Assembly (NCBI GenBank): GCA_026125215.1
Contig: JAHCLN010000011.1
Location: 1 to 43,900, forward strand
DNA: 43,900 bases
Origin: Opitutaceae bacterium
Lineage (GTDB): Bacteria > Verrucomicrobiota > Verrucomicrobiia > Opitutales > Opitutaceae
Reading direction: 5' to 3'
Shown: piece after piece, positions 6,698-43,900 of the stretch
Layout of the letters: every line of letters begins with the position of its first letter
Position numbering within the stretch: the stretch's first letter is position 1
Position numbers and translations under genes: made by a program
Notes under the pieces: model-generated
The model's input: only the letters and a program-made list of their open reading frames with translations
Told to the model about the DNA's origin: nothing
Database searches by the model: none

Positions 6698-8371
6698 ATG
6701 AGTTCAGTAATGCAAGATCTGCTCGCGCAGTCGTCCTTCGACAAGCTCAAGGCCGGCGCCATCGTCCCGGGCACCATCACCGAAATCCGCCAGAACGAAG
6801 TCGTGGTCGACATCGGCGGCAAATCCGAGGCCCTCGTTCCGGCCTCCGAGTTCATCGACATCGGCGAGCTGCAAATCGGCTCCACGATCGAGGTGCTCGT
6901 TGAGAAGCTCGAGGACAAGAACGGTTCGCCGGTCGTTTCCTACGACAAGGCCGAGCAGAAGAAGAACTGGGACAACATCCTGACGAAGTTCCCCGAGGGT
7001 TCCGTGGCCGCCGGCCGCGTGAAGGCCAAGGTCAAGGGCGGTCTCATCATCTCCATCGGCGTGGACGCGTTCATGCCGGCCTCGCACATCGACGTGCAGC
7101 CGCCCAAGAACCTCGACCAATACGTCGGGCAGACCTACGATTTCAAGGTCCTCAAGATCAACGTCGAGCGCCAGAACGTGGTGCTCTCCCGCCGCGAGCT
7201 CATCGAGGAGCAGCGCGCCAACAAGCGCCGCACCCTGCTCGAGTCCATCCAGCCCGGCCAGGTCCGCAAGGGCGTGGTCAAGAACATCACCGACTTCGGT
7301 GCGTTCATCGATCTCGACGGCATGGACGGCCTCCTCCACATCACCGACATGAGCTGGGGCCGCATCTCGCACCCCTCCGAAATGCTCAAGCAGGGTGAAG
7401 AGGTTCAGGTCATGATCATCGAGGTCAACCGGGAGAAGGAGCGCGTTTCCCTCGGTCTCAAGCAGACCACCAAGAATCCGTGGGACGAGATCGACCGGAA
7501 GTTCCCGGTCGGCGCGAAAGTCCACGGCAAGGTCGTCAATCTCGTGCCCTACGGCGCGTTCATCGAGATCGAGCCCGGCGTCGAAGGCCTCGTCCACATC
7601 ACCGAGATGTCCTGGACCAAGCGCATCACCAAGCCCTCCGAGCTGCTCAAGGTCGGCCAGGAGCTCGATGCGGTCGTCCTCGGCGTCCAGAAGGACGAGC
7701 AGAAGATCTCGCTCGGTCTCCGCCAGCTGGAGCCCAACCCGTGGGACATGGTCCGCCACAACTATCCGATCGGCGCCCGCGTCCGCGGCAAGGTGCGCAA
7801 CATGACCACCTACGGCGCCTTCATCGAACTCGAAGAGGGCATCGACGGCATGGTGCACGTCTCCGACATGAGCTGGACCCGCAAGGTCAACCATCCCTCC
7901 GAAGTCCTCAAGAAGGGCGACGAAGTGGATGCCATCGTCCTCGACGTCGATCCGAACCAGCAGCGCATCAGCCTCGGCATGAAGCAGCTGGGCGAGGATC
8001 CGTGGTCCGACATCGACAGCCACTTCAAGATCGGCGACGTCGTCACCGGCACCGTCACCAAGATCACCTCCTTCGGCGCCTTCGTGGAGCTCAAGGACGG
8101 CATCGACGGCCTCGTGCACATCTCGCAGATCAGCGAGGAGCGCATCGAGAAGATCAAGGACGTGCTCAAGCCCGGCCAGCAGGTCACGGCGCGCGTGATC
8201 AAGATCGACCGCGACGAGCGTCGTCTCGGTCTCTCGATCAAGGCGGCCAACTACTCGTCCGAGCAGCTCGCGGCGGAAACCTCCGCCTACGAGGCCATCG
8301 GCCGCACGCCGGGCACGGACATGATGAACCTGGGCGACATCCTCGATGCCGCCTCGGACAAGAAGGACTGA
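6698..8371 (+). CDS. rpsA: 30S ribosomal protein S1, six S1 domains
   Basis: A 557-residue protein made of six consecutive S1 (OB-fold) RNA-binding repeats beginning near residues 19, 99, 185, 271, 358 and 445. Repeats 3-6 are typical, each with a (Y/F)GAF(I/V)(D/E)(L/I) strand and a (L/V)H(I/V)(T/S) motif; repeats 1 and 2 are divergent, as in the family, where they dock to the ribosome. The protein brings mRNA to the 30S subunit. The reading frame extends upstream to 6650, but the ATG at 6698 (MSSVMQDLLAQ) fits the usual N-terminus. A strong terminator follows 28 nt after the stop, so it is probably a single-gene unit. Confidence 0.96.
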   Translation: MSSVMQDLLAQSSFDKLKAGAIVPGTITEIRQNEVVVDIGGKSEALVPASEFIDIGELQIGSTIEVLVEKLEDKNGSPVVSYDKAEQKKNWDNILTKFPEGSVAAGRVKAKVKGGLIISIGVDAFMPASHIDVQPPKNLDQYVGQTYDFKVLKINVERQNVVLSRRELIEEQRANKRRTLLESIQPGQVRKGVVKNITDFGAFIDLDGMDGLLHITDMSWGRISHPSEMLKQGEEVQVMIIEVNREKERVSLGLKQTTKNPWDEIDRKFPVGAKVHGKVVNLVPYGAFIEIEPGVEGLVHITEMSWTKRITKPSELLKVGQELDAVVLGVQKDEQKISLGLRQLEPNPWDMVRHNYPIGARVRGKVRNMTTYGAFIELEEGIDGMVHVSDMSWTRKVNHPSEVLKKGDEVDAIVLDVDPNQQRISLGMKQLGEDPWSDIDSHFKIGDVVTGTVTKITSFGAFVELKDGIDGLVHISQISEERIEKIKDVLKPGQQVTARVIKIDRDERRLGLSIKAANYSSEQLAAETSAYEAIGRTPGTDMMNLGDILDAASDKKD

Positions 8372-8399
8372 GCGCTCCCGACATCGTAACCATTGCAAA

Positions 8400-8427
8400 G
8401 CCGTCCGGGTTTCCCGGACGGCTTTTT
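8400..8427 (+). terminator. rho-independent terminator of rpsA
   Basis: Perfect 10-bp stem GCCGTCCGGG / CCCGGACGGC with a TTT loop (8410-8412), followed by TTTTT at 8423-8427. It lies 28 nt after the rpsA stop codon. Confidence 0.92.
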
Positions 8428-8470
8428 CATGCCCTTGGAGCGGTTCAAGCAATATCCTGCCGCGGAAGGG

Positions 8471-8520
8471 TAGGGGCAGACCGGTCGGGCGCGGTCCGCT
8501 CGGAGAGCGGACCCTACCGA
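8471..8520 (-). repeat. REP-like dispersed hairpin repeat, copy 1
   Basis: Read on the minus strand this begins CGGTAGGGTCCGCTCTCCG and continues AGCGGACCGCGCC; it contains the hairpin GGTCCGCT-CTCCG-AGCGGACC. A near-identical copy in the opposite orientation lies at 40029-40067. Both copies are intergenic, which fits an extragenic palindromic element. The rest of 8428-8698 shows no gene. Confidence 0.75.
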
Positions 8521-8698
8521 CATAACTTGCGACGAGTTGCCACCGAACTTTGGCTTTTGCCGGACTGCACACGACCTCGAAAAGCCCAGGTTTGAAAATC
8601 CAGTGTTGATCTTAAAGCACTTACGCGGCCTTTTGCTTCCATGCCTCCCTTTCAACTTAGGCTTTACGCTGAGGCTGAATAGCACTGTTCGGCAGAAA

Positions 8699-9088
8699 AT
8701 GAAATCTCAGCGCATAGTTGCCGGAATTCTTGCGCTAAATGGCGCCATCTATGCCCTCCTCGCATGGATGATGCCTCCGTTTTGGCCGGGCTATCTTGTG
8801 TGGATCGGCTGGATTTTGATCGCGTGCGGTTTGAAGAAGATCAGTAAGAGGTGGTTTTGGATTACGAGTGCGGTTTGGAATGCGGCTCTTCTATCTCTAT
8901 TTCTGAGTGATACCGACTGGAGCGGTCACGATAAGGCCCTGATCTACTGGCACGGGAGATTTCATCTTCTCGTCGCGACACTAGCTTCTGCGTTTTTATG
9001 CCTGCCTTCTTTTTGGAGATCCCAGAAGAAAGAGCCGAACCAACAGCCCGAGCCAATGCGGGCCATAGGCCCGCATGGCTCATCTTGA
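8699..9088 (+). CDS. small three-TM membrane protein, unknown
   Basis: Unrecognised 129-residue protein with about three hydrophobic segments (roughly residues 5-22, 27-42 and 85-100) and a basic, Gln/Pro-rich tail. The ATG at 8699 is chosen because the hydrophobic protein begins there; upstream codons to 8537 look random. The last ~13 codons (PEPMRAIGPHGSS) are the translation of a palindrome (9050-9081), so the natural C-terminus may have been replaced when that element or the neighbouring IS110 sequence arrived. Base composition is distinctly more AT-rich than the flanks, suggesting acquisition. Confidence 0.5.
   Translation: MKSQRIVAGILALNGAIYALLAWMMPPFWPGYLVWIGWILIACGLKKISKRWFWITSAVWNAALLSLFLSDTDWSGHDKALIYWHGRFHLLVATLASAFLCLPSFWRSQKKEPNQQPEPMRAIGPHGSS
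9050..9081. repeat. imperfect palindrome at the IS110 remnant
   Basis: Arms GAGCCAATGCGGGCC (9050-9064) and GGCCCGCATGGCTC (9068-9081) around an ATA loop; one unpaired A in the left arm. It overlaps the 3' end of the 8699-9088 gene and ends about 7 nt from the recognisable IS110 coding remnant. Confidence 0.8.
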
Positions 9089-9162
9089 ACGCCCTCGGCC
9101 ACCGCGATCGTGATCGTATCTTTATGGACATCCAGGCCCACATATCTTTGCTTCGGCTTCAT
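9089..9162 (-). mobile_element. remnant of an IS110-family transposase gene (N-terminus only)
   Basis: From an ATG at 9162 the minus strand reads MKPKQRYVGLDVHKDTITIA and continues VAEG. The YVGLDVHKDTI motif is the start of the DEDD catalytic domain of IS110-family transposases, with its first catalytic Asp. Identity is lost after ~24 residues at the palindrome 9050-9081. About 100 nt beyond 9162 may be the element's left flank. The remaining ~300 residues of a transposase are absent, so this is a dead fragment. Confidence 0.72.
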
Positions 9163-9264
9163 GTGCTTGTCCTTGGTTTTGGTTGTTTCGGTTACACGCC
9201 ACACCACTGCGGATAGGCTCTCCTCGAGAGTTAACCCGCGTTCCCCAAGGACAAGCACCCCTCT

Positions 9265-9294
9265 TTCGCTCTGCTGCTTCATCGCAGCTATAAT
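9265..9294 (+). promoter_or_regulatory. candidate promoter of the 9313 gene
   Basis: A perfect -10 hexamer TATAAT at 9289-9294, 18 nt before the ATG at 9313. The -35 region (TTCGCT at 9265-9270, spacer 18) is a poor match. It could also derive from the IS110 flank. Confidence 0.35.
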
Positions 9295-9312
9295 GCCTGG
9301 GCAAAAGCAGCC

Positions 9313-9881
9313 ATGTTCGACACCCTAACTAAATACGTAGAAAAAAAGCCGCGCTCGATTGTGATATGCGCGCTGACTTTTATAGCGACGCTCAGCGGTG
9401 TGTCGGACGCATGTTTCTACGTGCTTTCCCAAATCGTCGAAAACGAGAGAAGCTGGGCGCGACAAGAAGTTATTCTCGCAAAGGCGAGATACGAAAATGA
9501 AGCGAAGAATCTCCAAGCGCGTGCGAGGCTGAATACAGAGAACATCAGTCGTTCCCTAGATTCCTTCATTCCCGTGCTGAAGGAACAGGTTGAGAGCATT
9601 CGAACACTGAAGATCGAACTCGGTTCCCGAGCGAAGGAAGATGATGCGGTTTTTCCCTCTATCTCAAAGTTGCCGAACTTGAGTTTCGCACAGGTGAGTT
9701 GCTGCGGAAGCTCGAGTCAGAACGTGTCATTCTAGGTCCGCCATCAGTTTTGACCGGCGTTACTCCAACATGGGGCCACATGCAGTATGTCATGCCACGC
9801 TTGGCATTGTGGTCGGGGATCGCGTTCCTTGTTTCCGCTGCGTTCATCGTGTTCGTTCTTCGAAAGAAAAATGCCGCCTAA
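9313..9881 (+). pseudogene. frameshifted membrane/coiled-coil protein gene, unknown
   Basis: The first frame (9313-9735) gives an N-terminal hydrophobic segment (IVICALTFIATLSGV) followed by a long charged helix with coiled-coil character. Near 9650 the helix pattern is lost and the frame ends in a short meaningless tail. In the -1 frame the helix resumes (LYLKVAELEFRTGELLRKL) and ends in a second TM segment (LWSGIAFLVSAAFIVFVL) and the stop at 9879-9881. A missing T in the T-run at 9650-9654 would join both into one ~189-residue protein with two TMs and a coiled coil. I recognise no family. It may be a real mutation or a sequencing slip in the homopolymer. Confidence 0.6.
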
Positions 9882-9907
9882 CAAGGCGCCAGCGGCGGTC
9901 GTTGGCT
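9876..9907 (+). other. attC-like motif at the end of the frameshifted gene
   Basis: GCCTAAC at 9876-9882 fits the integron R'' core RYYYAAC and, as often in gene cassettes, contains the stop codon TAA. GTTGGCT at 9901-9907 matches the R' core GTTRRRY at six of seven positions. The intervening 18 nt are far shorter than a normal attC arm pair, so at most this is a degenerate site. Confidence 0.2.
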
Positions 9908-10009
9908 CATCTTTAACGATCGGCGGAAGATATTCGGGTATAATTTGATTTAACTGCATGGCAGTGGCATTGAGTCCGGCTCAGACCGGCATGGGCGGCA
10001 CGCGGACGC

Positions 10010-10038
10010 AAAAAAGGCCGGCAATCAGGCCGGCCTTT
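10010..10038 (-). terminator. rho-independent terminator of the sigma factor gene
   Basis: Read on the minus strand: AAAGGCCGGC, loop CTGATT, GCCGGCCTTT, with the T-run completed to six (10015-10010). It lies 19 nt after the sigma-factor stop. Confidence 0.9.
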
Positions 10039-10056
10039 GCTGGGGCTGTGGAGAGC

Positions 10057-11121
10057 TTAGTTGCGCCCGGCTTTGGCGGCCTTGGCGGACTTGCTTTCCA
10101 TGAATTCGCGGATGACGGCCATGCGCTGGCGCTGGCGCTCTTCTTCCTCGATTTCCTCGGTCGTGCGGATCGATTCGTGCTTGGCGATCGCCTTCCGCAT
10201 TTTGGTGATGGCGAGGTATTCGAGCTGGCGGATGCGCTCGCGGGTGACGCGGAACTTCTGGCCGACTTCCTCGAGGGTGAGCTCCTCCCGGCCATCGAGG
10301 CCGAAGCGCAGGCGGATGATCTCGGCCTCACGGGCGTCGAGCGAGTCCACCATCGCGCGAAGATCGGCGTTCAGGTTGCGCTCCCGCAGGCTTTCAAAAG
10401 GGCTCACGGCGTTTTCATCGCCGACGATTTCGCCGAAGGTCGAGGAATCGCTCTCTTCGCCGACCGGGGCGTCGAGCGAAGCCGGGCGGACGCTCACGGA
10501 CTTGAGGTGGGCGACCTTGCTGGTGGGAATCTGCAGCTCGCGCGCCAATTCCTCGTCGGTCGGCTCGCGGCCGAGTTCCTCGGTGAGCTTCATCGCGGTG
10601 CGGCGCATCTTGGCAATCTTGTCCACCAGATGAACCGGCAGGCGGATGGTCTTGGACTGGTTGGCGAGGGCGCGCTTGATGGACTGCTTGATCCACCACG
10701 CGGCGTAGGTCGAGAGCTTGCCGCCCTTGCGGGGGTCGAAGCGCTCCACGGCCTTAATGAGGCCGATATTGCCTTCGCTGATCAGGTCGAGCAGCGGGAG
10801 ACCAAAGTCCTTGTAATCCATGGCGATCTTCACGACCAGGCGCAGGTTGGCCTGGATCATGTGGTCGCGGGCGGCCTTGTCGCCCCGGCGGATGCGTTTT
10901 GCGAGGGTGACTTCCTCCTCGATGGTCAGGAGAGGGGTCTTGCCGATTTCCTGCAGGTATAGCTGAAGATTGCTGCGCTCGCCGTGCGGGATGGGCGCTT
11001 CGGCGGCCGGTTCGGGCTTTTCGAGAAAGGAGGGGGGCGTGTCGAGGAGGACGCTGGCGGCCTCCGTGGCGGGGCTGTCGGTTTCAACAGCCAGACGGTT
11101 GGTCTTCAATTTCAGGGCCAT
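10057..11121 (-). CDS. sigma-70 family RNA polymerase sigma factor (RpoD/group 2 type)
   Basis: A 354-residue sigma factor with region 1.2 (NLQLYLQEIGKTPLLT, ~residues 50-80), region 2 (LRLVVKIAMDY, DLISEGNIGLIKAVERFD, STYAAWWIKQSI; core binding and -10 recognition), region 3 (~170-235) and region 4 helix-turn-helix (LTLEEVGQKFRVTRERIRQ, ~285-305) for -35 contacts. The long region 1.1 and the non-conserved insert of Gram-negative primary sigma factors are missing, so it is either a short primary sigma factor or an RpoS-like group 2 factor; sequence alone does not decide. The Arg/Glu-rich C-terminal tail after region 4 is unusual. A leader of 219 nt separates it from trpE, and I see no confident promoter there. 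Confidence 0.9.
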   Translation of the reverse strand: MALKLKTNRLAVETDSPATEAASVLLDTPPSFLEKPEPAAEAPIPHGERSNLQLYLQEIGKTPLLTIEEEVTLAKRIRRGDKAARDHMIQANLRLVVKIAMDYKDFGLPLLDLISEGNIGLIKAVERFDPRKGGKLSTYAAWWIKQSIKRALANQSKTIRLPVHLVDKIAKMRRTAMKLTEELGREPTDEELARELQIPTSKVAHLKSVSVRPASLDAPVGEESDSSTFGEIVGDENAVSPFESLRERNLNADLRAMVDSLDAREAEIIRLRFGLDGREELTLEEVGQKFRVTRERIRQLEYLAITKMRKAIAKHESIRTTEEIEEEERQRQRMAVIREFMESKSAKAAKAGRN

Positions 11122-11340
11122 GGTAAAAATCGTTGAGGGTTAGTCTCTGTGGGAGGAGCAATGTTCCGACGGGATTGTTCCGACTGACCTAGCCTAAATC
11201 GTTCCAACCTTGCTACGGCCGTCCTGCTGGGACGGATGCAAAAAATCGAACGCGGCAGCGCCATCGCGTCCCAGCGGAAGCCGGCCCGAAGGGCCAAATG
11301 GCACACGGGCCCGGTGCGACCGCAGCGGATGAAACCGCCC

Positions 11341-12828
11341 TCAGGTCGGAAACTGCTCGGCCATGGCGACGGCCTTGAAGAGGGCGGAGGCTTTGTTGAT
11401 GGTCTCCTGATATTCCTCGGAGGGCACGGAGTCGGCCACCCAGCCGCCGCCGGCCTGGATGTAAACGCGGCCGTCCTTGAGCAACGCGGTGCGCAGCATG
11501 ATGCAGGTGTCCATGTTGCCATCGTAGCCAAAATAGCCGAGGGCCCCGGCATAGAAGCCGCGCTGCGTCTGCTCGATCTGCGTGATGATCTGCATGGCCC
11601 GGACCTTGGGCGCGCCGCTCACGGTGCCGGCAGGGAAGGTGGCGCGCAGGAGATCGTAGGCGTCCTTGTCCGGCGCAATGCGGCCCTCGACCTGCGAGAC
11701 GATGTGCATGACGTGCGAGTAGCGCTCGACCGTCATGAAATCCGGCACCGTGACGGAACCGAAGGCGCACACGCGGCCGATGTCGTTGCGGGCGAGGTCC
11801 ACCAGCATGAGGTGCTCGGCCTTTTCCTTTTCGTCGGCGAGAAGTTCCCGCTCAAGGGCGGCGTCCTCCGCCGGGGTCGCGCCCCGGCGCCGGGTGCCGG
11901 CGATGGGGCGGATCTCCACGCGGCCGTCGGTCAGCCGCACGTGGACTTCGGGCGAAGCGCCGACGATGGCGAAGTCGCCCGTCTCGAGGATGAACATGTA
12001 GGGCGAAGGATTGACCGTGCGCAACGCCCGATAGAGGTCGAGCAGCGTCCGGGCAAAAGGCTTGGTAAAGCGCTGGGCGCCGACCACCTGGATGATGTCG
12101 CCGGCCCGGATGAATTCCTTGGCGTCCTGCACGGCCTGCTCGAAGCGGGCGCGGGTGAAATTGCCCGGCGGCACCTGGACCGGACCGGGATCGATCAGCG
12201 GGGCCGGGGCCAGTTCCCGGGGCTGTCGGAGCAGGGCGTGCAAGGCTGCCAGCTCGGCCACGGCGGCATCATAGGCGGCCCCGGCATCGGAACCGATGTG
12301 GGCGTTGACGCAAAGCCGGAGGGTTTGCTTGGCGCGGTCGAAAATCAGCAGCGAGTCCGACAGCATGAAATAGAGCAGGGGCGTGCCGAGTTCGTCTTTC
12401 GGGGCGACGGGAACGGTGGGCTCCACGCGCATGACGTATTCGTAGCCCACAAAGCCCACGGCGCCGCCGGTAAAGCGCGGCAGGCCCGGCAGGCTGACCG
12501 GCCGGTAGCGCCCCATCTCTTCCTTGAGCAGATCCAGCGGGTCCGGCGGGGTGGGAATGCGTTCGACGGGCCGCCCGGGCACGCGGATTTCGGTGGTGGC
12601 CGGCCCGCAGACGAGGACCTTGCGCGGCCGGCAGCCGATGAAGCTGTAGCGGGAGAGGTGCTCTCCGCCCTCGACGGATTCGAGAAGATAGGCCGGGCCG
12701 GCTTCCCTCAGCTTGGCGTATGCCGACACGGGGGTTTCGAAATCGGCCATGAGGTCGGTGCAGACGGGCACGACGTTGCCCTGTTGGCTGAGAGCAAGAA
12801 AGGCGTCGCGGGTGGGGAAAATGGTCAT
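11341..12828 (-). CDS. trpE: anthranilate synthase component I
   Basis: Converts chorismate and ammonia (from the TrpG glutaminase) to anthranilate, the first step of tryptophan synthesis. The N-terminal feedback-binding motif LLESVEGGEHLSRYSFIG is present (~residue 50), and the catalytic C-terminal half shows PIAGTRRRG, LLADEKEKAEHLMLVDLARND and FPAGTVSGAPKVRAMQ. Length (495 aa) is typical of the TrpE branch rather than PabB, and the Leu-Leu-Glu-Ser motif supports tryptophan feedback. No trpG or leader peptide is adjacent. Confidence 0.93.
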   Translation of the reverse strand: MTIFPTRDAFLALSQQGNVVPVCTDLMADFETPVSAYAKLREAGPAYLLESVEGGEHLSRYSFIGCRPRKVLVCGPATTEIRVPGRPVERIPTPPDPLDLLKEEMGRYRPVSLPGLPRFTGGAVGFVGYEYVMRVEPTVPVAPKDELGTPLLYFMLSDSLLIFDRAKQTLRLCVNAHIGSDAGAAYDAAVAELAALHALLRQPRELAPAPLIDPGPVQVPPGNFTRARFEQAVQDAKEFIRAGDIIQVVGAQRFTKPFARTLLDLYRALRTVNPSPYMFILETGDFAIVGASPEVHVRLTDGRVEIRPIAGTRRRGATPAEDAALERELLADEKEKAEHLMLVDLARNDIGRVCAFGSVTVPDFMTVERYSHVMHIVSQVEGRIAPDKDAYDLLRATFPAGTVSGAPKVRAMQIITQIEQTQRGFYAGALGYFGYDGNMDTCIMLRTALLKDGRVYIQAGGGWVADSVPSEEYQETINKASALFKAVAMAEQFPT

Positions 12829-12905
12829 GGCAGGCCGATAATTGCGGGGGATGGTCCGCGGCTAGCGAGGAGAAAAAACGCCGGCGCGGACACGCGGACG
12901 GCGGG

Positions 12906-14756
<1,851 letters not shown>

Positions 14757-14777
14757 AGTTTGATAAATTTACTGGCG

Positions 14778-14807
14778 ATATTAGCGGCGCGCGCAAAAGT
14801 GGCGCAA
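14778..14807 (-). promoter_or_regulatory. candidate glmS promoter
   Basis: On the minus strand TTGCGC (14807-14802) and TAATAT (14783-14778) are spaced by 18 nt; the -10 ends 21 nt before the glmS ATG. It lies in the glmS/glgC divergent gap. Confidence 0.45.
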
Positions 14808-14825
14808 GGCTTATAGGCGGACCAT

Positions 14826-16115
14826 ATGACTACTCAAAAACGCGCATTGGCGGTGATCATGGGCGGCGGCCGGGGCACCCGGCTGCAACCGCTGACGACG
14901 GAACGCTGCAAGCCGGCGGTGCCGCTCGCGGGCAAATACCGCCTCGTCGATATTCCGATCAGCAACTGCATCAACTCGGACATCAACCGGATCTTCATCC
15001 TCACGCAGTTCCAGACCGCATCGCTGCACCGGCACGTGCAGAGCACCTATCACTTCGATCCCTTCGGCGGCGGCTTTGTGGACATCCTTTCCGCCGAGCA
15101 AACCGAAAAAGGTTCGGACTGGTATCAGGGCACGGCCGATGCCGTGCGGCGCAACCTGATCCACTTCCGCTCCTTTCCGCACGATCTCGTGCTCATCCTG
15201 TCGGGCGACCAGCTCTACCGGATGGATTACCGGAAGATCATTGACCAGCATCTGGCTTCCGGTGCGGACGTGACGATCGCCGCGATTCCGTTTCCTGTCT
15301 CGAAGGTGGCCGGCCTCGGCCTCATGCAGGTCAACGACGATCTTTCCATCGGGCGCTTTGTGGAGAAGCCAAAGGATCCGGCGATCATCGACAGTCTCAC
15401 GCTCAGTCCGGCGGTCGAGGCGCGGCTGACTGCCAAGACCGGGGAGAAGCACTGCCTCGCCTCGATGGGTATCTACATCTTCAACCGGCGGGCCTTGGCC
15501 GATGCGCTGGACAACACAATGACTGACTTCGGCAAGGAGATCATCCCCGGGCTCCTCGGCAAGAAGAAGCTTTTTGCACACATCTTTGAAGGCTATTGGG
15601 AGGACATCGGCACGGTGCGCGCTTTCTTCGAAGCCAACCTGGCGCTCGCGCAACCCCTGCCGCCCTTCAATTTCTTTGATCCGGCGGCGCCGATCTACAC
15701 CCAGGACCGCTACCTGCCGGCCTCGAAGCTCAACCGCTGCCAGATCGACCATGCCGTGATCGGCGACGGCTGCATCATCGCGGATTCAACCATCAGGCGG
15801 TGCGTGTTCGGCATCCGCTCCTTTGTCGAGGAGGGCTGTATCCTGGAGGACGTGATTGTGATGGGTTCGGATTATTACGAAACCACCGAACAGCAGGACG
15901 AAAACCTGGCCCAAGGCCGGCCGCACCTCGGGGTGGGCAAAGGCTGCCGGATCAGCGGGGCCATCATCGACAAGAACGCCCGTATCGGCGCCGGTTGCAT
16001 GCTGCAGGCCGCGGGCAAGGAAGACGGCAGCTATGCCGGCGGCGCGGTCATCATCCGCGACGGCGTGCTCGTCGTGCCAAAGGGCGTCACTTTGCCGGCC
16101 GGCACGGTGGTCTGA
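14826..16115 (+). CDS. glgC: glucose-1-phosphate adenylyltransferase
   Basis: Makes ADP-glucose, the glycogen precursor, from glucose-1-phosphate and ATP. The nucleotidyltransferase domain shows GGGRGTRLQPLT, KPAVPLAGKYRLVDIPISNC, YQGTADAVRRN, SGDQLYRMDY, FVEKPKD and FEGYWEDIGT. The C-terminal third (from ~residue 300) is a left-handed beta-helix with hexapeptide-like repeats, involved in allosteric control in this family. Full length, 429 aa. It is convergent with lgt, with a 9-nt gap, and divergent from glmS, so sugar-phosphate metabolism genes meet here. Confidence 0.95.
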   Translation: MTTQKRALAVIMGGGRGTRLQPLTTERCKPAVPLAGKYRLVDIPISNCINSDINRIFILTQFQTASLHRHVQSTYHFDPFGGGFVDILSAEQTEKGSDWYQGTADAVRRNLIHFRSFPHDLVLILSGDQLYRMDYRKIIDQHLASGADVTIAAIPFPVSKVAGLGLMQVNDDLSIGRFVEKPKDPAIIDSLTLSPAVEARLTAKTGEKHCLASMGIYIFNRRALADALDNTMTDFGKEIIPGLLGKKKLFAHIFEGYWEDIGTVRAFFEANLALAQPLPPFNFFDPAAPIYTQDRYLPASKLNRCQIDHAVIGDGCIIADSTIRRCVFGIRSFVEEGCILEDVIVMGSDYYETTEQQDENLAQGRPHLGVGKGCRISGAIIDKNARIGAGCMLQAAGKEDGSYAGGAVIIRDGVLVVPKGVTLPAGTVV

Positions 16116-38294: not shown

Positions 38295-38648
38295 ATGAAA
38301 ATTGACTCCAATCTGGTGGATGAGTCCGTCCTCACGGAGTTGGGACGCCGCGTGACCGCTATCCGGCTGGCGCAGAATCTCTCCCAGCGGCAGCTGGCGG
38401 AGCGGGCCGGGCTCGGGTTGCGCACGGTCCAGCGGCTGGAGCAGGGCGCAGCCGCCACGCAGTTGTCGGGCTTTGTGCGCGTATGCCGGGCCTTGGGGCT
38501 GATGGATCGTCTCGATCAAATCCTCGCCGAGCCGCCGCCGAGTCCGCTCGACCGGTTGCGGCTGCAGGAGCGCAAGCGCCGGCGCGCCACCGGCCGGCGT
38601 CAGGCCGTGGCTGAGCCCGGCAAGTGGACCTGGGGCAAATCGTCATGA
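38295..38648 (+). CDS. hipB: HipB-type antitoxin (XRE helix-turn-helix)
   Basis: A 117-residue DNA-binding antitoxin. The Cro/CI helix-turn-helix is read as LGRRVTAIRLAQNLSQRQLA followed by ERAGLGLRTVQRLEQG (~residues 16-52). The C-terminal ~35 residues are basic (RLRLQERKRRRATGRR) and end in WTWGKS, a likely toxin-contact tail; HipB tails in other systems reach the HipA active site. It overlaps hipA by 4 nt (ATGA). Expected to repress its own operon through the palindromes at 38238-38294. Confidence 0.9.
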   Translation: MKIDSNLVDESVLTELGRRVTAIRLAQNLSQRQLAERAGLGLRTVQRLEQGAAATQLSGFVRVCRALGLMDRLDQILAEPPPSPLDRLRLQERKRRRATGRRQAVAEPGKWTWGKSS

Positions 38649-39949
38649 TCGCGCGCGTCAGGCTTTGGGGACGGGACATCGGCGCCGTGTCGTTGGACGA
38701 CGGCGGCGAGGTGGCGGCGTTCCAATACACGCCGGACTTTGCGCGGAGCGGCATCCAGGTGTCGCCCATCGTGATGCCGCTCGGGCCGCAGGTCTGGCAG
38801 TTTCCCGCGCTGCCGCGCCGGACCTTTCACGGCCTGCCCGGGCTGCTGGCGGATTCGCTGCCCGACAAGTTTGGCAATGCGCTCATTGATGCGTGGCTGG
38901 CCCGGCAGGGCCGCACGCCGGCGGAGTTCAGCGCGGTGGACAGGCTGTGCTACACGGGCACGCGTGGCATGGGCGCGCTGGAGTTTGCCCCCACGCTCGG
39001 ACCGCGTCCGCAAAAGCCCTCGAAGATCGATCTCGATGCGCTCGTGAGCCTCGCCTCCGAGGTGCTGGCCAGCCGCGATGCGCTCTCGGGCAATTTTCAG
39101 CCGAAGTCGCGCGAGAAGGCGCTCAACGACATCCTGCGCGTCGGCACCTCCGCCGGTGGCGCGCGGGCCAAGGCCGTCATCGCGTGGAACCCCAAGACCG
39201 AGGAGGTCCGTTCCGGTCAGGTGCGGGCAGGGGAGGACTTCGAATACTGGCTGCTCAAATTCGACGGCGTGAAGGGCAACAAGGACAAGGAACTCGACGA
39301 TCCGAAGGGCTTCGGCGCCATCGAGTATGCCTATCACCTGATGGCCAAGGCCGCCGGCATCACGATGAGCGAGTGCCGGCTGCTGGAGGAAAACGGCCGC
39401 CGGCACTTCATGACGAAGCGCTTCGACCGGCTGCCCGACGGCGAGAAGCTGCACATGCAGTCGCTCGGTGCGCTCGCGCACTACGATTTCAACGCCGCGG
39501 GCGCACATTCCTACGAACAGGCGCTGCTCGTCATGCGGCAGCTTCACCTGCCGCCCGACCAGGTCGAGCAGCAGTTCCGCCGGATGGTGTTCAACGTCGT
39601 CGCGCGCGACCAGGACGACCACGTGAAGAACATCGCCTTCCTGATGGACCGCGCCGGCACCTGGTCGCTCTCGCCCGCCTTCGACGTGTGCTACAGCTAC
39701 AATCCCTCCGGCGAATGGACGGCCACGCACCAGATGACCATCAACGGCAAGCGGGACAAATTCACCCGCGACGACTTCGCCGCCTGCGCGGAGGTGGGTT
39801 TTCTCAAAAAGAGCCGGATCAACGCGATTACCGACGAAGTCATCGCCGCCGTCACCCGCTGGCCCGAGTTCGCCGCCGCCGCGAAGGTCGCCGACGAAAC
39901 CACCTCCGCCATCGGCCGTGCCCACCGGTTGGAGATTTCGGCGGCGTGA
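38645..39949 (+). CDS. hipA: HipA-type serine/threonine kinase toxin
   Basis: Phosphotransferase toxin of 434 aa. N-terminal HipA subdomain 1 (~residues 1-110) is followed by the kinase-like core: the P-loop-like GTSAGGARAKA (~residue 170), EYWLLKFDG (ATP-contacting Lys), the catalytic loop RDQDDHVKN (~320-328, general base Asp and Asn) and LSPAFDVCYSY (metal-binding Asp). All catalytic positions look intact, so the toxin should be active. E. coli HipA phosphorylates glutamyl-tRNA synthetase; other members target other synthetases, so the target here is unknown. The start overlaps the hipB stop, giving coupled expression. Confidence 0.93.
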   Translation: MIARVRLWGRDIGAVSLDDGGEVAAFQYTPDFARSGIQVSPIVMPLGPQVWQFPALPRRTFHGLPGLLADSLPDKFGNALIDAWLARQGRTPAEFSAVDRLCYTGTRGMGALEFAPTLGPRPQKPSKIDLDALVSLASEVLASRDALSGNFQPKSREKALNDILRVGTSAGGARAKAVIAWNPKTEEVRSGQVRAGEDFEYWLLKFDGVKGNKDKELDDPKGFGAIEYAYHLMAKAAGITMSECRLLEENGRRHFMTKRFDRLPDGEKLHMQSLGALAHYDFNAAGAHSYEQALLVMRQLHLPPDQVEQQFRRMVFNVVARDQDDHVKNIAFLMDRAGTWSLSPAFDVCYSYNPSGEWTATHQMTINGKRDKFTRDDFAACAEVGFLKKSRINAITDEVIAAVTRWPEFAAAAKVADETTSAIGRAHRLEISAA

Positions 39950-40093: not shown

Positions 40094-40339
40094 TCAGACG
40101 CCTCTGGCTTTGAGCAGGGCGGCGAGTTCGACCGGGTCGGCCGTGCCTTTGACGGTGTTGAGGTGGCTGAGGACGGCCATGCGGTCATCGGGACCACAAC
40201 TGGAGATTTCGATCATCCAGTCCTCGGTCTTGTCGGCGACGGCAACAACCTCATCGGACCAAGCGATGACTTCGGAAGCCTCCACGAAGCCCTGTGTGAT
40301 GCCCTGGATAAAAAACTCCGCCTTTGTCCGATAATTCAT
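40094..40339 (-). CDS. small unknown protein
   Basis: Unrecognised acidic 81-residue protein (MNYRTKAEFFIQGITQGFVE start). No signal, TM or catalytic motif; predicted mostly helix with a central strand (WMIEISSCG). ATG 40339 chosen as the start; the frame continues upstream to 40447 over a region that is more likely the shared leader with the divergent OYE gene. A domain resembling C-terminal dimer segments (HLNTVKGTADPVELAALL) is present. Reality as a gene is moderately supported by its length and base use. Confidence 0.5.
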   Translation of the reverse strand: MNYRTKAEFFIQGITQGFVEASEVIAWSDEVVAVADKTEDWMIEISSCGPDDRMAVLSHLNTVKGTADPVELAALLKARGV

Positions 40340-40449
40340 GGCGCGACTCTTCGGGGAGCGTTCGACCCTGCCAAGCGCGAAAGCGGGCGTCCGCGTCCCA
40401 CTTGCTATTTCCGCCGTCAGACATTCTTTGCACGCTTTCCGTTTCATCC

Positions 40450-41532
40450 ATGCCGCACGAAGCCCTCTTCAACCCCGTCCAACTCGGCGCCATCGCGCTC
40501 CCGAACCGCATCGTCATGGCGCCCCTCACGCGCTGCCGTGCCGATGCCGACCATGTGCCGACCGACATCATGGCCGACTACTACGCGCAGCGCGCCGGGG
40601 CTGGGCTGATCATCGCCGAAGCCACGATGGCCATCGAGGGCAACTCCGCCTTTGGCGGACGCGAGCCGGGCCTGTATTCCGCCGCGCAGGTGGCCGGTTG
40701 GAAAAAGGTGACGGACGCGGTGCACGCCAAGGGCGGCCGGATCCTCGCGCAGATCTGGCATGGCGGGCGCGCCTGCCACTCCCTGCTCAACAACGGGGCC
40801 CAGCCCGTCGCGCCGAGCCCGCTGCGGATCGAGAACGACGAGACGCACACCCCGCAGGGCAAGAAGCCCTACGAGGTGCCGCGCGAGCTGCGCGATGACG
40901 AGCTGCCGGGCATCGTGGCCGGTTTCGCCCGCGCGGCGGAGAACGCGAAGGCCGCCGGGTTCGACGGGGTCGAGGTGCATGGCGCCAACGGCTACCTGCT
41001 CGACGAGTTCCTGCGCGACGGCAGCAACCGCCGCACCGGCCCCTATGGCGGGCCGATCGCCCACCGCGCGCGGCTGCTGCTCGAGGTGGTCGATGCCGTC
41101 ATCGGGGTCTGGGGCAAGGACCGCGTCGGCGTGCGCATCTCGCCGCTGAACAGCTACAATTTCATGCAGGACAGCGACCCGGTCGCGCTCACACGGCATG
41201 TCGCCGCGCAGCTGGACCGGCGCGGCATCGCCTTCCTCGACCTGATGCGCGGCGATTTCTTCGGCGTGCAGAAGGGCGACGTCGTCACGCCGGCGCGCGA
41301 AGCCTTCAAGGGGGCTTTGCTCGTGGGCATGGGCTTCACGCCCGCAGAAGCCGAGCAGGCCGTCCAAAGCGGCACGGCCGCCGCCATCGTCTTCGGCCAC
41401 CACTTCATCAGCAATCCCGACCTGCCCGCGCGCGTGCGCGCCGGGGTGCCGCTCGTGGAACCCGACAGCAAGACCTTCTACAGTCCCGGACCGCGCGGTT
41501 ACACCGATTACCCGCTGCTGGGCGCGGCTTGA
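40450..41532 (+). CDS. Old Yellow Enzyme family ene-reductase (NemA-like)
   Basis: FMN-dependent TIM-barrel oxidoreductase of 360 aa that reduces activated C=C bonds with NAD(P)H. FMN and active-site motifs: LPNRIVMAPLTRCRA, QIWHGGRACH, EVHGANGYLLDEF and LRDGSNRRTGPYGG. The classical OYE catalytic pair is His plus Asn/His after the WH motif; here WHGGRACHS keeps two His. Physiological substrate unknown (family members reduce glycerol trinitrate, N-ethylmaleimide and enones). ATG 40450 used; upstream frame is noise. Confidence 0.92.
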   Translation: MPHEALFNPVQLGAIALPNRIVMAPLTRCRADADHVPTDIMADYYAQRAGAGLIIAEATMAIEGNSAFGGREPGLYSAAQVAGWKKVTDAVHAKGGRILAQIWHGGRACHSLLNNGAQPVAPSPLRIENDETHTPQGKKPYEVPRELRDDELPGIVAGFARAAENAKAAGFDGVEVHGANGYLLDEFLRDGSNRRTGPYGGPIAHRARLLLEVVDAVIGVWGKDRVGVRISPLNSYNFMQDSDPVALTRHVAAQLDRRGIAFLDLMRGDFFGVQKGDVVTPAREAFKGALLVGMGFTPAEAEQAVQSGTAAAIVFGHHFISNPDLPARVRAGVPLVEPDSKTFYSPGPRGYTDYPLLGAA

Positions 41533-41570
41533 GGCAGGTCGCGCTTACTTCGACATAAGATCCGCAGCCT

Positions 41571-41586
41571 GACCCTTCTCAGGGTC
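41571..41586 (+). terminator. possible terminator of the OYE gene
   Basis: GACCCT (41571-41576), loop TCTC, AGGGTC (41581-41586), followed by CTTT. Short stem and weak T-run, 38 nt after the stop. Confidence 0.3.
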
Positions 41587-41643
41587 CTTTAGCGGACCTT
41601 ATTAATCTAACACCTAACGCCCCCGCCAATCCGCTTGCGAAGT

Positions 41644-42498
41644 CTACGCATTCCCCAGTTTTAGGTTTTCAACCGCCGCATCTACAGACTCGACAGCTTT
41701 TGCGATTGCTCCGGCAAACTGCAATTTTTCGATCGGAATGGTTGCAGTGAAATGAACGCTGTCCGCTTGAGACCGCTTCCCGGTAAAATTCCACCCGCCT
41801 GTCCGCATGATTCCATCAAGTCGCTCAGTCGCTGGGCCGAGGTATTTCTTAACATTTTCGAACTTTCTATCTCCGGTGTTCATCCAATCGCACTCGAATT
41901 TAACCTCCTTTGAAGATTCGTCGCCCTTGATTTCAATCTTAAAGCCCGTGCGCAGCTCAAAATAACCACAGAGGGTATCTACGTTCCAATGGTATGTTCT
42001 TCCTCCTTCTTTTGTCCGCGCTAAAATTTCCTCCGCAGCGAGTTCAGCTGAGGCATTTTTAGTGGGGTTTTTCAGTGCGCGATGCAATTGCTCAAGTTCA
42101 CCCAAAATTCGCACGATGTCCCAACGCTCCGACTGATTTGGCTTGGTAGTCCAGTAGATGAGTCGAGCCCAGCGCTGGTTTAGCGAGTGCCATTCTTTCG
42201 ATGGCTCACGCCCTATTTCCTTCTGAAGTTTTTCCACCCAATCTGCATGCTGGCTTTCCGTGAAGAGAGGAGCCCTTCCGCTCACGATAAAAAAAAGTGT
42301 CATCCCAATGCCGTATGAATCTACCAGCGCATTCCGGCTGCTAAATCTTGAGACGCCCGACAACTCGGGGGCTAGATAGCCGTTCACAGAGTGTGCCAGA
42401 GATACCGAGTGTCCAATTGCGTCACGATGCCATGACAAATCGAAATCCAGGACGACAACTTTGAACTCATCTTCATTCGACCACAGATCTGAAAGCAT
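41644..42498 (-). pseudogene. truncated protein-kinase C-lobe plus unknown C-terminal domain
   Basis: The 284 residues start inside a serine/threonine kinase domain: KAGNIMLSDL (end of the catalytic loop, readable to 42513 upstream of the ATG), VVVLDFDLSW (DFG position, here DFD), GYLAPEL (APE) and DSYGIGMTLFFIVSG (C-lobe helix). The glycine loop, the Lys-bearing strand and the HRD motif are missing, so it cannot be an active kinase. After ~residue 140 comes a domain of ~145 residues I do not recognise. An in-frame TGA at 42523-42525 blocks upward extension. Composition is AT-rich against the chromosome, suggesting horizontal origin. Confidence 0.75.
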
Positions 42499-42917
42499 GA
42501 TGTTGCCCGCTTTACCAGTCCATCAAGATTCAGAGTTACAAAACCTGCAATCGGCATTCGCCAAAGATCGCAATATTCCTCGGGAGGGATTGTGCGATCC
42601 GCATGTTCAAATTCTCGACGGATCTCGGCAGTATAAGTTGTATCACCGAGAACTTCCTTAATGTGCGCAAAAGCCCGCCAGTAGTCGCCCTCGCGCTCTG
42701 CCACATCAAGCAACGCTTGATCGCGCCTTAAATTTTCAGTTCTATACTCGACCTCTTTGCGCGCAGACTTAAGCAAGCCCGCTCGCAATTCTGACCACGT
42801 TGGCATTTTTGCAGGTCTGCTCAGTCCAGCACCACAGAAGACGACCACTTGGCGCGTGCGTTCTGCCATCACTTTCCGAAGTGCAAGATAGCTATTTTGT
42901 GTGGTGTCGAAGGGCAT
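42384..42917 (-). pseudogene. truncated SIR2-family N-terminal domain
   Basis: Starts MPFDTTQNSYLALRKVM and shows the SIR2 nucleotide-binding start VVVFCGAGLSRPAKMPTW (GAG-x-S, ~residue 25-42) and the later FVTLNLDGLVKRA (~residues 127-139). Natural SIR2 domains of this type continue for 100 or more residues; here, after ~139 residues, the frame runs into sequence that in another frame encodes a kinase C-lobe, so the last ~38 residues are meaningless. Bacterial SIR2 domains are NADases or NAD-binding effectors of several antiphage systems. The intact ancestor was probably SIR2 followed by a kinase. Confidence 0.75.
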
Positions 42918-43237
42918 GCTCGGCGCCTACAGAGAAGCTATAAATGCTGGGGAATCTCAGTCAACGTTTTGATCGGGCGAAGGCACCAACGCATCGCGCT
43001 GTCAGAATGACAGTTCGTCGACAAGCTCAGGATCTTCGATTGCCGCCTAGATTTGATCGGGAGCGCCGCCACCGACGGGTGAACTGGGATAGCGCGCGGC
43101 GAAGCCTTTCGCGTCGTGGGGTTGGTCGTCGCCGACGACGTCGGCAGGGTCGCCGTCACCATGGGGTGAAAGCAGGTTTTTGGGTGTTGCAGTTAGCTTT
43201 TATCCGAGTGGTTCTTCGCAAAATCACACGCGAAATA
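42918..43237. other. gene-free stretch with repeat-like debris
   Basis: About 320 nt with no supportable gene. It contains GTCGACAAGCTCAGGATCT near 43017-43036, resembling a short intergenic repeat that I recall from many GC-rich bacteria, and GC-rich sequence toward 43150. Nothing else recognisable. Confidence 0.4.
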
Positions 43238-43900
43238 TCACCGGTTGAACGACCGCTCGCTGATCCAGCGGAAGCCGCGGCTGTTGAGGCGGAAGCTTCG
43301 TTCGTCCACGCGGTGGAGGCGCAGTTCCAGGTCGTTTTCATCCAGTCGGGTCTGCAGGCGCATGACACCAACGTCAGGAAAGGTGATGGTTGCCGCAGCG
43401 GTTGCGGATCCGTCGGCGCGGGTGAGCGTGTAGCTGCCGGGATCGGTAGCGCGTTCTACCAGCCAGGCGCCGGCCGGGGCATTGGCGGTCGTGCGGACGG
43501 CCATCACGCGGTAGTCGCCAAAGATGACCGTGCCCCAGCGCGAGGAGTCGGTGAGCAGCGGTGGCACGGTCTCGCCATTGCGCACAAAGGATTCGACGTG
43601 CCAGATGCCGCGCAACTCGGCCGGCGTGGTGCCGTAGCTTTCGCGGTCGTCCGCACCCTAGCGAAACTGCGCGTAAACCGTGGAACCAATCACCCAGACA
43701 ACCACGATGGCCTTCAAGGCCGGAGCCAAGCGCCGCAGGTGGAGCGGCAGCCCAATGCAAGGAGAGTCGCCAGCGGGAGTGCTCCGGTAATGCCAGAAAA
43801 AATCCCGCAGCCGTCGCCAGTCGGGCACCACCAGCAGCACGGCCATCACCAGAAGGTGGCCGGAAAGCAGCTTCATCGGCACGTCGTAGCAGAGGTTGAG
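43238..43900 (-). pseudogene. partial membrane protein with in-frame TAG (DoxX-like C-terminal family)
   Basis: The frame is open at the right window edge and runs leftwards: a hydrophobic segment (LLSGHLLVMAVLLVVPDW), then a second one ending VYAQFR, then TAG at 43660-43658, then in the same frame YGTTPAELRGIWHVESFV, PPLLTDSSRW and a C-terminal end LNSRGFRWISERSFNR. Together they match a membrane-protein family (DoxX-like) with a lipocalin-like C-terminal domain whose members, from memory, end SRGFHWI-EYPFNR. The stop therefore interrupts one gene. It may be a nonsense mutation or a base-call error; the reading frame is otherwise intact on both sides. Confidence 0.65.

Follow-up and report, generated by a model that had tools for sequence, protein, structure and literature searches.

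The window analysed here is the whole of contig C13, a 43,900-bp stretch ending at position 43900, from a 3.46 Mb assembly of 224 contigs (90.8% complete). It contains two ORFs that overlap in different frames on the minus strand, of 177 and 284 aa, just as an earlier note on this DNA described them. The first (42384–42917, minus strand) encodes the N-terminal half of a SIR2 domain (42504–42917, minus strand, as delimited by the family HMM described below) and then runs on, out of homology, to 42384. The second (41644–42498, minus strand, open back to 42522) encodes a kinase C-lobe that extends from the catalytic-loop Asn (KAGNIM) through DFD to APE (42043–42513, minus strand; the end of the lobe is approximate), followed by a C-terminal domain common to its relatives (41647–42042, minus strand). 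Read directly from the sequence, the junction lies at 42500–42522 (minus strand), where LVKRA in the SIR2 frame meets GKAGN in the kinase frame. The earlier note was right that a SIR2 start is joined out of frame to a kinase C-lobe; the position it gave for the join, 42511–42540, is slightly upstream of the one found here.

The SIR2 half retains the GAGLS and TLNLD motifs, and its best PADLOC model is LmuA (E 2.5e-9, positions 14–136 of 433); a Pfam scan of this fragment alone gave no SIR2 match. Pfam Pkinase matches the kinase half (E 2.2e-5) over profile positions 137–258 of 263, that is, the C-lobe only, and at 24.5 bits the fragment scores under the curated cut-off of 31.7. The final ∼138–140 residues have no Pfam or PHROGs match, and the earlier note had likewise been unable to assign them to a domain type.

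Both ORFs lie inside a low-GC segment (41533–43000, approximate bounds) between an Oxidored_FMN gene (40324–41532) and a gene at 43238–43900 (minus strand). Their GC is 0.49 (SIR2 half) and 0.51 (kinase half), compared with 0.69 for the FMN gene, and their GC3 is 0.46 and 0.52, compared with 0.82–0.89 in all six other window genes measured. This composition marks the segment as foreign and little ameliorated. The ∼430 homologous codons contain no further stops. Both observations fit horizontal acquisition followed by recent decay, which is how the earlier note had read the AT-rich composition.

No tRNA was found in the window, no repeat of at least 12 bp in 41500–43300, and no integrase was noticed among the window ORFs by eye; nor was a PP2C-like gene seen downstream of the window copy. 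An inverted 9-mer flanking the two ORFs was rejected as chance (57 of 500 shuffles reach it). A 3′ flank that by eye resembled an integron attC site was also dropped; elsewhere in the genome this flank has only 14–20-bp matches. The gene at 43238–43900, which is cut by the contig end, carries one in-frame TAG, whereas its relatives (L030 and L031) have unbroken reading frames. The stop may mean that a second gene has decayed here, or it may be an error near the contig end. Of 99 further genomes in the family sample, two contain the downstream neighbour. In the short loci that carry its relatives, no Oxidored_FMN-like ORF was noticed and no empty insertion site was demonstrated. About 1.7 kb from the two ORFs, at 38295–39949 (plus strand), an HTH-like gene (117 aa, by eye) overlaps an intact HipA-type gene (Pfam HipA_C 8e-51, Couple_hipA 1e-18). 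By these matches, this is a putative HipBA-like toxin-antitoxin pair.

Comparison with intact relatives indicates that the two ORFs are parts of a single gene. We built a family HMM from four intact relatives only, without the window sequence, and searched the 715 stop-to-stop segments of the window (at least 30 aa). The model matches exactly two of these, the SIR2 half at model positions 2–143 (E 8.3e-37) and the kinase half at 505–764 (E 1.3e-68), so that both halves fall on one full-length profile, in order. Model positions 144–504 are absent from the window; they comprise the second half of SIR2 with the HG His, the linker, the kinase N-lobe and HRD, in agreement with the parts that the earlier note had listed as missing. 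A search of the organism's own genome with the same alignment returned the same two places, and the other matches listed were generic kinases (five of 16 candidates scored). Identity between the window and the four intact proteins is 28–38% in the SIR2 part and 29–36% in the kinase part.

At the junction, SIR2 homology reaches 42504 or slightly further and kinase homology starts at 42513–42507; the two therefore overlap by ∼10 nt, read in different frames. The absent stretch corresponds to ∼360 residues in the intact protein L017, which implies the loss of ∼1.1 kb with a change of frame. We are nearly certain that the locus is a remnant of a gene of the SIR2-kinase-C-terminal family, which in the assembled sequence has an internal deletion. 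The deletion may have arisen between short direct repeats, which would be expected to leave an overlap such as these ∼10 nt. Without the SIR2 His, the kinase ATP site and HRD, the copy in the window should be dead, and neither NADase nor kinase activity is expected of its product.

The family has five further members, four of them intact. The intact proteins come from genome G550 (L013/L017, 789 aa), genome G1121 (L034/L043, 789 aa) and two IMG/VR contigs (L044/L046, 789 aa; L045/L047, 794 aa). The fifth member, from genome G476 (L014/L018), is a C-terminal fragment near a contig edge with homology starting in the middle of the C-lobe. The region that holds it (L018 1–673) has a GC of 0.38 versus 0.60, and it is possibly a second, independent remnant. 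In all four intact proteins a SIR2_2 domain, a kinase and the C-terminal domain follow in this order in one polypeptide. The earlier note had foreseen an intact relative as either a single SIR2-kinase-C-terminal protein or a gene pair, and it is the single protein that exists; the outcome that would have spoken against its reading, with the 177-aa and 284-aa products as two complete separate families, was not seen.

The four intact proteins share 33–38% pairwise identity over 676–792 aligned residues. All exceed the curated Pfam cut-off for Pkinase, and they score 56.1 (L017), 52.5 (L044), 44.7 (L045) and 44.9 bits (L043) against SIR2_2 (cut-off 24.5). Residues that are invariant in all four include GxG, the Asn of LN.D and the His of HG in the SIR2 domain, and VAxK, HRD, DFD and PE in the kinase, with DFD standing where DFG is usual. 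With the Asn and His conserved in every intact member, these proteins are candidate NADases. For the C-terminal domain, neither Pfam nor PHROGs gave a convincing match (best Pfam E 0.16 and 0.23). Structure prediction for the window fragment alone gave a pLDDT of 40 and was discarded. Prediction for L044 with a four-row alignment gave 54.9 overall, with residues 611–710 at 75–89 per block. The 50 PDB matches listed for this full-length model are all kinases, over ∼460–658, and the 50 BFVD matches listed are mostly kinases (TMq 0.08–0.15).

Three of the four intact genes are found in mobile-element settings, a count biased by the origin of two of them in a viral-contig collection. The gene encoding L017 lies on a 7.14-kb element (7793–14982) bounded by exact 47-bp repeats 7143 bp apart, one of which is at the 3′ end of a tRNA-Gly gene. 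The element has a GC of 0.548 compared with 0.66 outside and encodes a tyrosine recombinase, the SIR2-kinase, a PP2C-like protein and a serine recombinase; there is also a weak match of Rep type. At 7.1 kb this is a small integrative element, and it has recombinases of both the tyrosine and the serine kind. The PP2C-like gene lies downstream of the SIR2-kinase gene and overlaps its stop codon (ATGA); its assignment is based on NCBIfam Stp1 (E 9.7e-8, below the model cut-off) and a sub-threshold Pfam match. On the L045/L047 contig the family gene is surrounded by integrase, Phage_GPA, Ogr_Delta, GPD and GpU genes, a set of families that we read as a probable P2-like prophage, and it has the D gene (tail side) on one flank and the repressor/ogr side on the other. 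Directly upstream of it is an ORF of 160 residues (L047 8037–8519) with a signal-peptide-like start by eye and no PADLOC match. The L044/L046 contig encodes a TrwC relaxase, RecT, Gp157 and DUF4942. The gene encoding L043 is flanked by a methyltransferase gene and a 461-aa ORF without a PADLOC match; no tRNA was found there, and no mobile gene among the ORFs read (from L043:5149 on). A PP2C-like gene adjoins one of the four intact copies, that of L017; none was seen by eye in the ORFs around the other three or downstream of the L018 fragment.

The earlier note had suggested checking whether intact copies lie in defence islands; a PADLOC scan of nine chosen neighbour genes of intact copies showed no such island. 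The scan returned methyltransferase models including Mad2, SspD, helicase models and a marginal RmrA; four neighbours had no match. Mad2 matches L043 11928–12785 (1.8e-19), 0.6 kb from the SIR2-kinase gene, and L046 2761–4167 (2.1e-19), 5.8 kb from it, in both cases covering only the methyltransferase part of Mad2. The SspD (reductase) match (2.4e-16) is to a neighbour in L047, and the helicase models match the L046 relaxase. Among the L017 neighbours the PP2C-like gene alone matches, marginally (PDC-M21C, 0.0072). These hits are readable as generic domains. The proximity of Mad2-type methyltransferases to SIR2-kinase genes may be due to chance; a link with the Mad6-like kinase is also possible.

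Homologs of the family are scarce. In the counts that follow generic kinases are left out, and the genome samples overlap. Among 288 genomes of the organism's own phylum, only its own contains a family member; besides it there are four weak matches (E 4e-4 to 8e-4). A search of 387 genomes with the SIR2 part found the own genome and four weak matches, one of which (L008) is a stand-alone 289-aa SIR2-like protein. Within the own class, the full-length profile identified one genome of 188 with a family member among the matches listed. Matches of any kind occur in 161 of these 188 genomes, with as a rule at most five candidates per genome scored, and every match listed outside the own genome falls within model positions 347–658, the kinase. 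In the phylum of G387, two of 398 genomes have a member (G550, intact, and G476, the C-terminal fragment), and two more matches are other kinases. The figures are one of 289 in the class of G550 (G550 itself), one of 48 in the class of G476 (G476, plus one weak kinase-region match) and one of 274 in the class of G387 (G1121, intact, plus seven genomes with weak kinase-region matches). The single locus retrieved from the genome contigs (L012) was rejected: the hit is read as an 8-mer shared by chance with a MoxR-like ATPase, and the whole genome of L012 gave no match.

Phage and plasmid collections gave a similar picture. None of 50,697 phage and 72,556 plasmid records covers 80% of a family protein. 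Query P0003 matched 221 plasmid records, none at 80% coverage, and the 40 matches listed lie within query positions 317–735 (kinase). Plasmids gave nothing with the window parts or with the SIR2-and-linker part of L044. Among phages, the L045 protein matched 15 records, none at 80% coverage and all within query positions 377–658; the SIR2 part matched three records at E 4–5, and query P0001 had no match. Searches of viral contigs gave no match with single sequences or with a three-row C-terminal alignment, and two matches with alignment A4, the same two being found with A5. The SIR2-kinase-C-terminal family is rare and apparently mobile.

Each half of the protein resembles components of known defence systems. 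LmuA, the best PADLOC model for the window SIR2 half, is also the best for the SIR2 halves of L017 (5.6e-20) and L044 (9.1e-19); at E 1e-10 PADLOC lists no LmuA match for either L043 or L045. For the kinase half the PADLOC matches are PD-T4-6 and Mad6 models (E down to 1.9e-34). No PADLOC v2 model among the matches listed (the best 25 for L017 and L044) spans both halves. Like Lamassu LmuA, Thoeris ThsA and Dsr1, the family has a SIR2-like domain in which GxG, Asn and His are conserved, but here that domain is paired with a protein kinase. Lamassu consists of an LmuA effector, in which SIR2 depletes NAD+, and an SMC-like LmuB gene. No SMC-like LmuB was found beside the intact genes in ORFs scanned partly by eye; the long ORFs there encode recombinases, PP2C-like protein, relaxase, phage tail proteins, methyltransferase and the 461-aa ORF. 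The NCBIfam Dsr1 equivalog scores far below its cut-off for L017 and the window.

KKP (PfkA/PfkB/PfpC) provides the closest parallel on the kinase side. KKP consists of two kinases (with CSD and FHA domains) and a PP2C, and is carried by prophages, including P2-like ones, and by other mobile elements (PMC11341870). Like KKP, the SIR2-kinase family has a Ser/Thr kinase on prophages or other mobile elements and, at one copy, a PP2C-like gene. Unlike KKP, it has one kinase rather than two, joined to SIR2; Pfam scans show neither CSD nor FHA, and no PP2C-like gene was seen beside three of the four intact copies. Likeness to PD-T4-6, Mad6 (MADS) and PglW (BREX) is limited to the kinase domain: L017 and L043, the two proteins scanned, score 81.7 and 62.5 bits against NCBIfam MADS6 (cut-off 460), and 30.7 and 51.3 bits against PglW (cut-off 990). 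By the sequence features tested, the family is distinct from Lamassu, KKP, MADS and BREX. We found no description of a SIR2-kinase fusion in the literature searched, most of it not examined in full text. This includes passages of PMC11084316, PMC9503650 and PMC7159879, the DefensePredictor paper (PMC13092281), in whose main text 'SIR2' occurs 0 times, and PMC12839542, from which all three terms sought are absent.

Bacterial immunity is known to make use of kinases as well as SIR2 NADases. Published precedents bear on each half: in Thoeris and SPARSA, abortive infection is described as proceeding through NAD+ depletion by SIR2 (PMC11084316), and KKP is a prophage kinase/PP2C defence in which a phage protein inhibits the PP2C that restrains the kinases (PMC11341870). 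From their domain content and mobile-element settings, SIR2-kinase proteins are good candidates for phage defence. In the mechanism that we propose, the C-terminal domain or the kinase would sense infection, and autophosphorylation by the kinase would switch the protein on and release the SIR2 domain. The SIR2 domain would then hydrolyze NAD+, stopping phage and cell together. Where present, the PP2C phosphatase would keep the protein off or reset it. We put the chances at about even that the intact proteins act against phages in this way as a whole, by abortive infection or inter-element exclusion.

The main rival holds that the kinase is itself the toxin, as in KKP, arresting growth by phosphorylating host proteins, with PP2C as the antitoxin and the SIR2 domain as a sensor of NAD+ or ADP-ribose or a modifier of targets. 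The complete kinase motifs of all four intact proteins and the ATGA overlap with a PP2C-like gene in L017 are both in keeping with it, as is the toxicity of the KKP kinases when together and their neutralization by PfpC, reported in PMC11341870. However, the absence of a PP2C-like gene visible by eye in the listed ORFs around three of the four intact copies makes an obligate PP2C antitoxin unlikely, and a pure sensor need not keep the catalytic Asn and His that the SIR2 domain retains. We consider this account, with its altered role for SIR2, unlikely. A further view, to which we also give little weight, is that the protein serves its element in signalling or regulation, controlling lysogeny or exclusion, and is no anti-phage effector. 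Its carriers (one prophage, one integrative element and a contig that encodes a relaxase) suit such a role, and KKP also controls lysogeny (PMC11341870). Yet elements of unlike type carry the same protein, and no partner gene common to them was noticed, which argues for self-contained cargo.

A different doubt concerns the window itself, where the deletion could be an artefact of assembly or binning in an organism that carries an intact gene. The assembly is fragmented, as its contig number and completeness indicate, the junction is 1.4 kb from a contig end, and the neighbouring gene also has an in-frame stop. The two sides of the junction share only ∼10 nt, however, which is short for the usual assembler join. 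Searching the assembly with the DNA and with the C-terminal protein (all five candidates scored) gave no second copy, and the matches listed for the own genome (five of 16 candidates scored) do not include the missing middle. We regard an artefact as quite improbable.

Tentatively, and with rather more doubt than conviction, we suggest that the intact family may represent a new SIR2 immune type: a single-polypeptide NADase gated by phosphorylation, which prophages and integrative elements spread and which a PP2C, as an optional extra, can turn off. In such a protein a Ser/Thr kinase would replace the usual nucleotide-binding, STAND or SMC sensor. The interest of the locus lies in this intact family, to which the dead window remnant led. 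If the intact protein defends, phosphorylation would be tied directly to NAD+ depletion, and the family would offer a one-gene system for testing kinase control of an immune effector.
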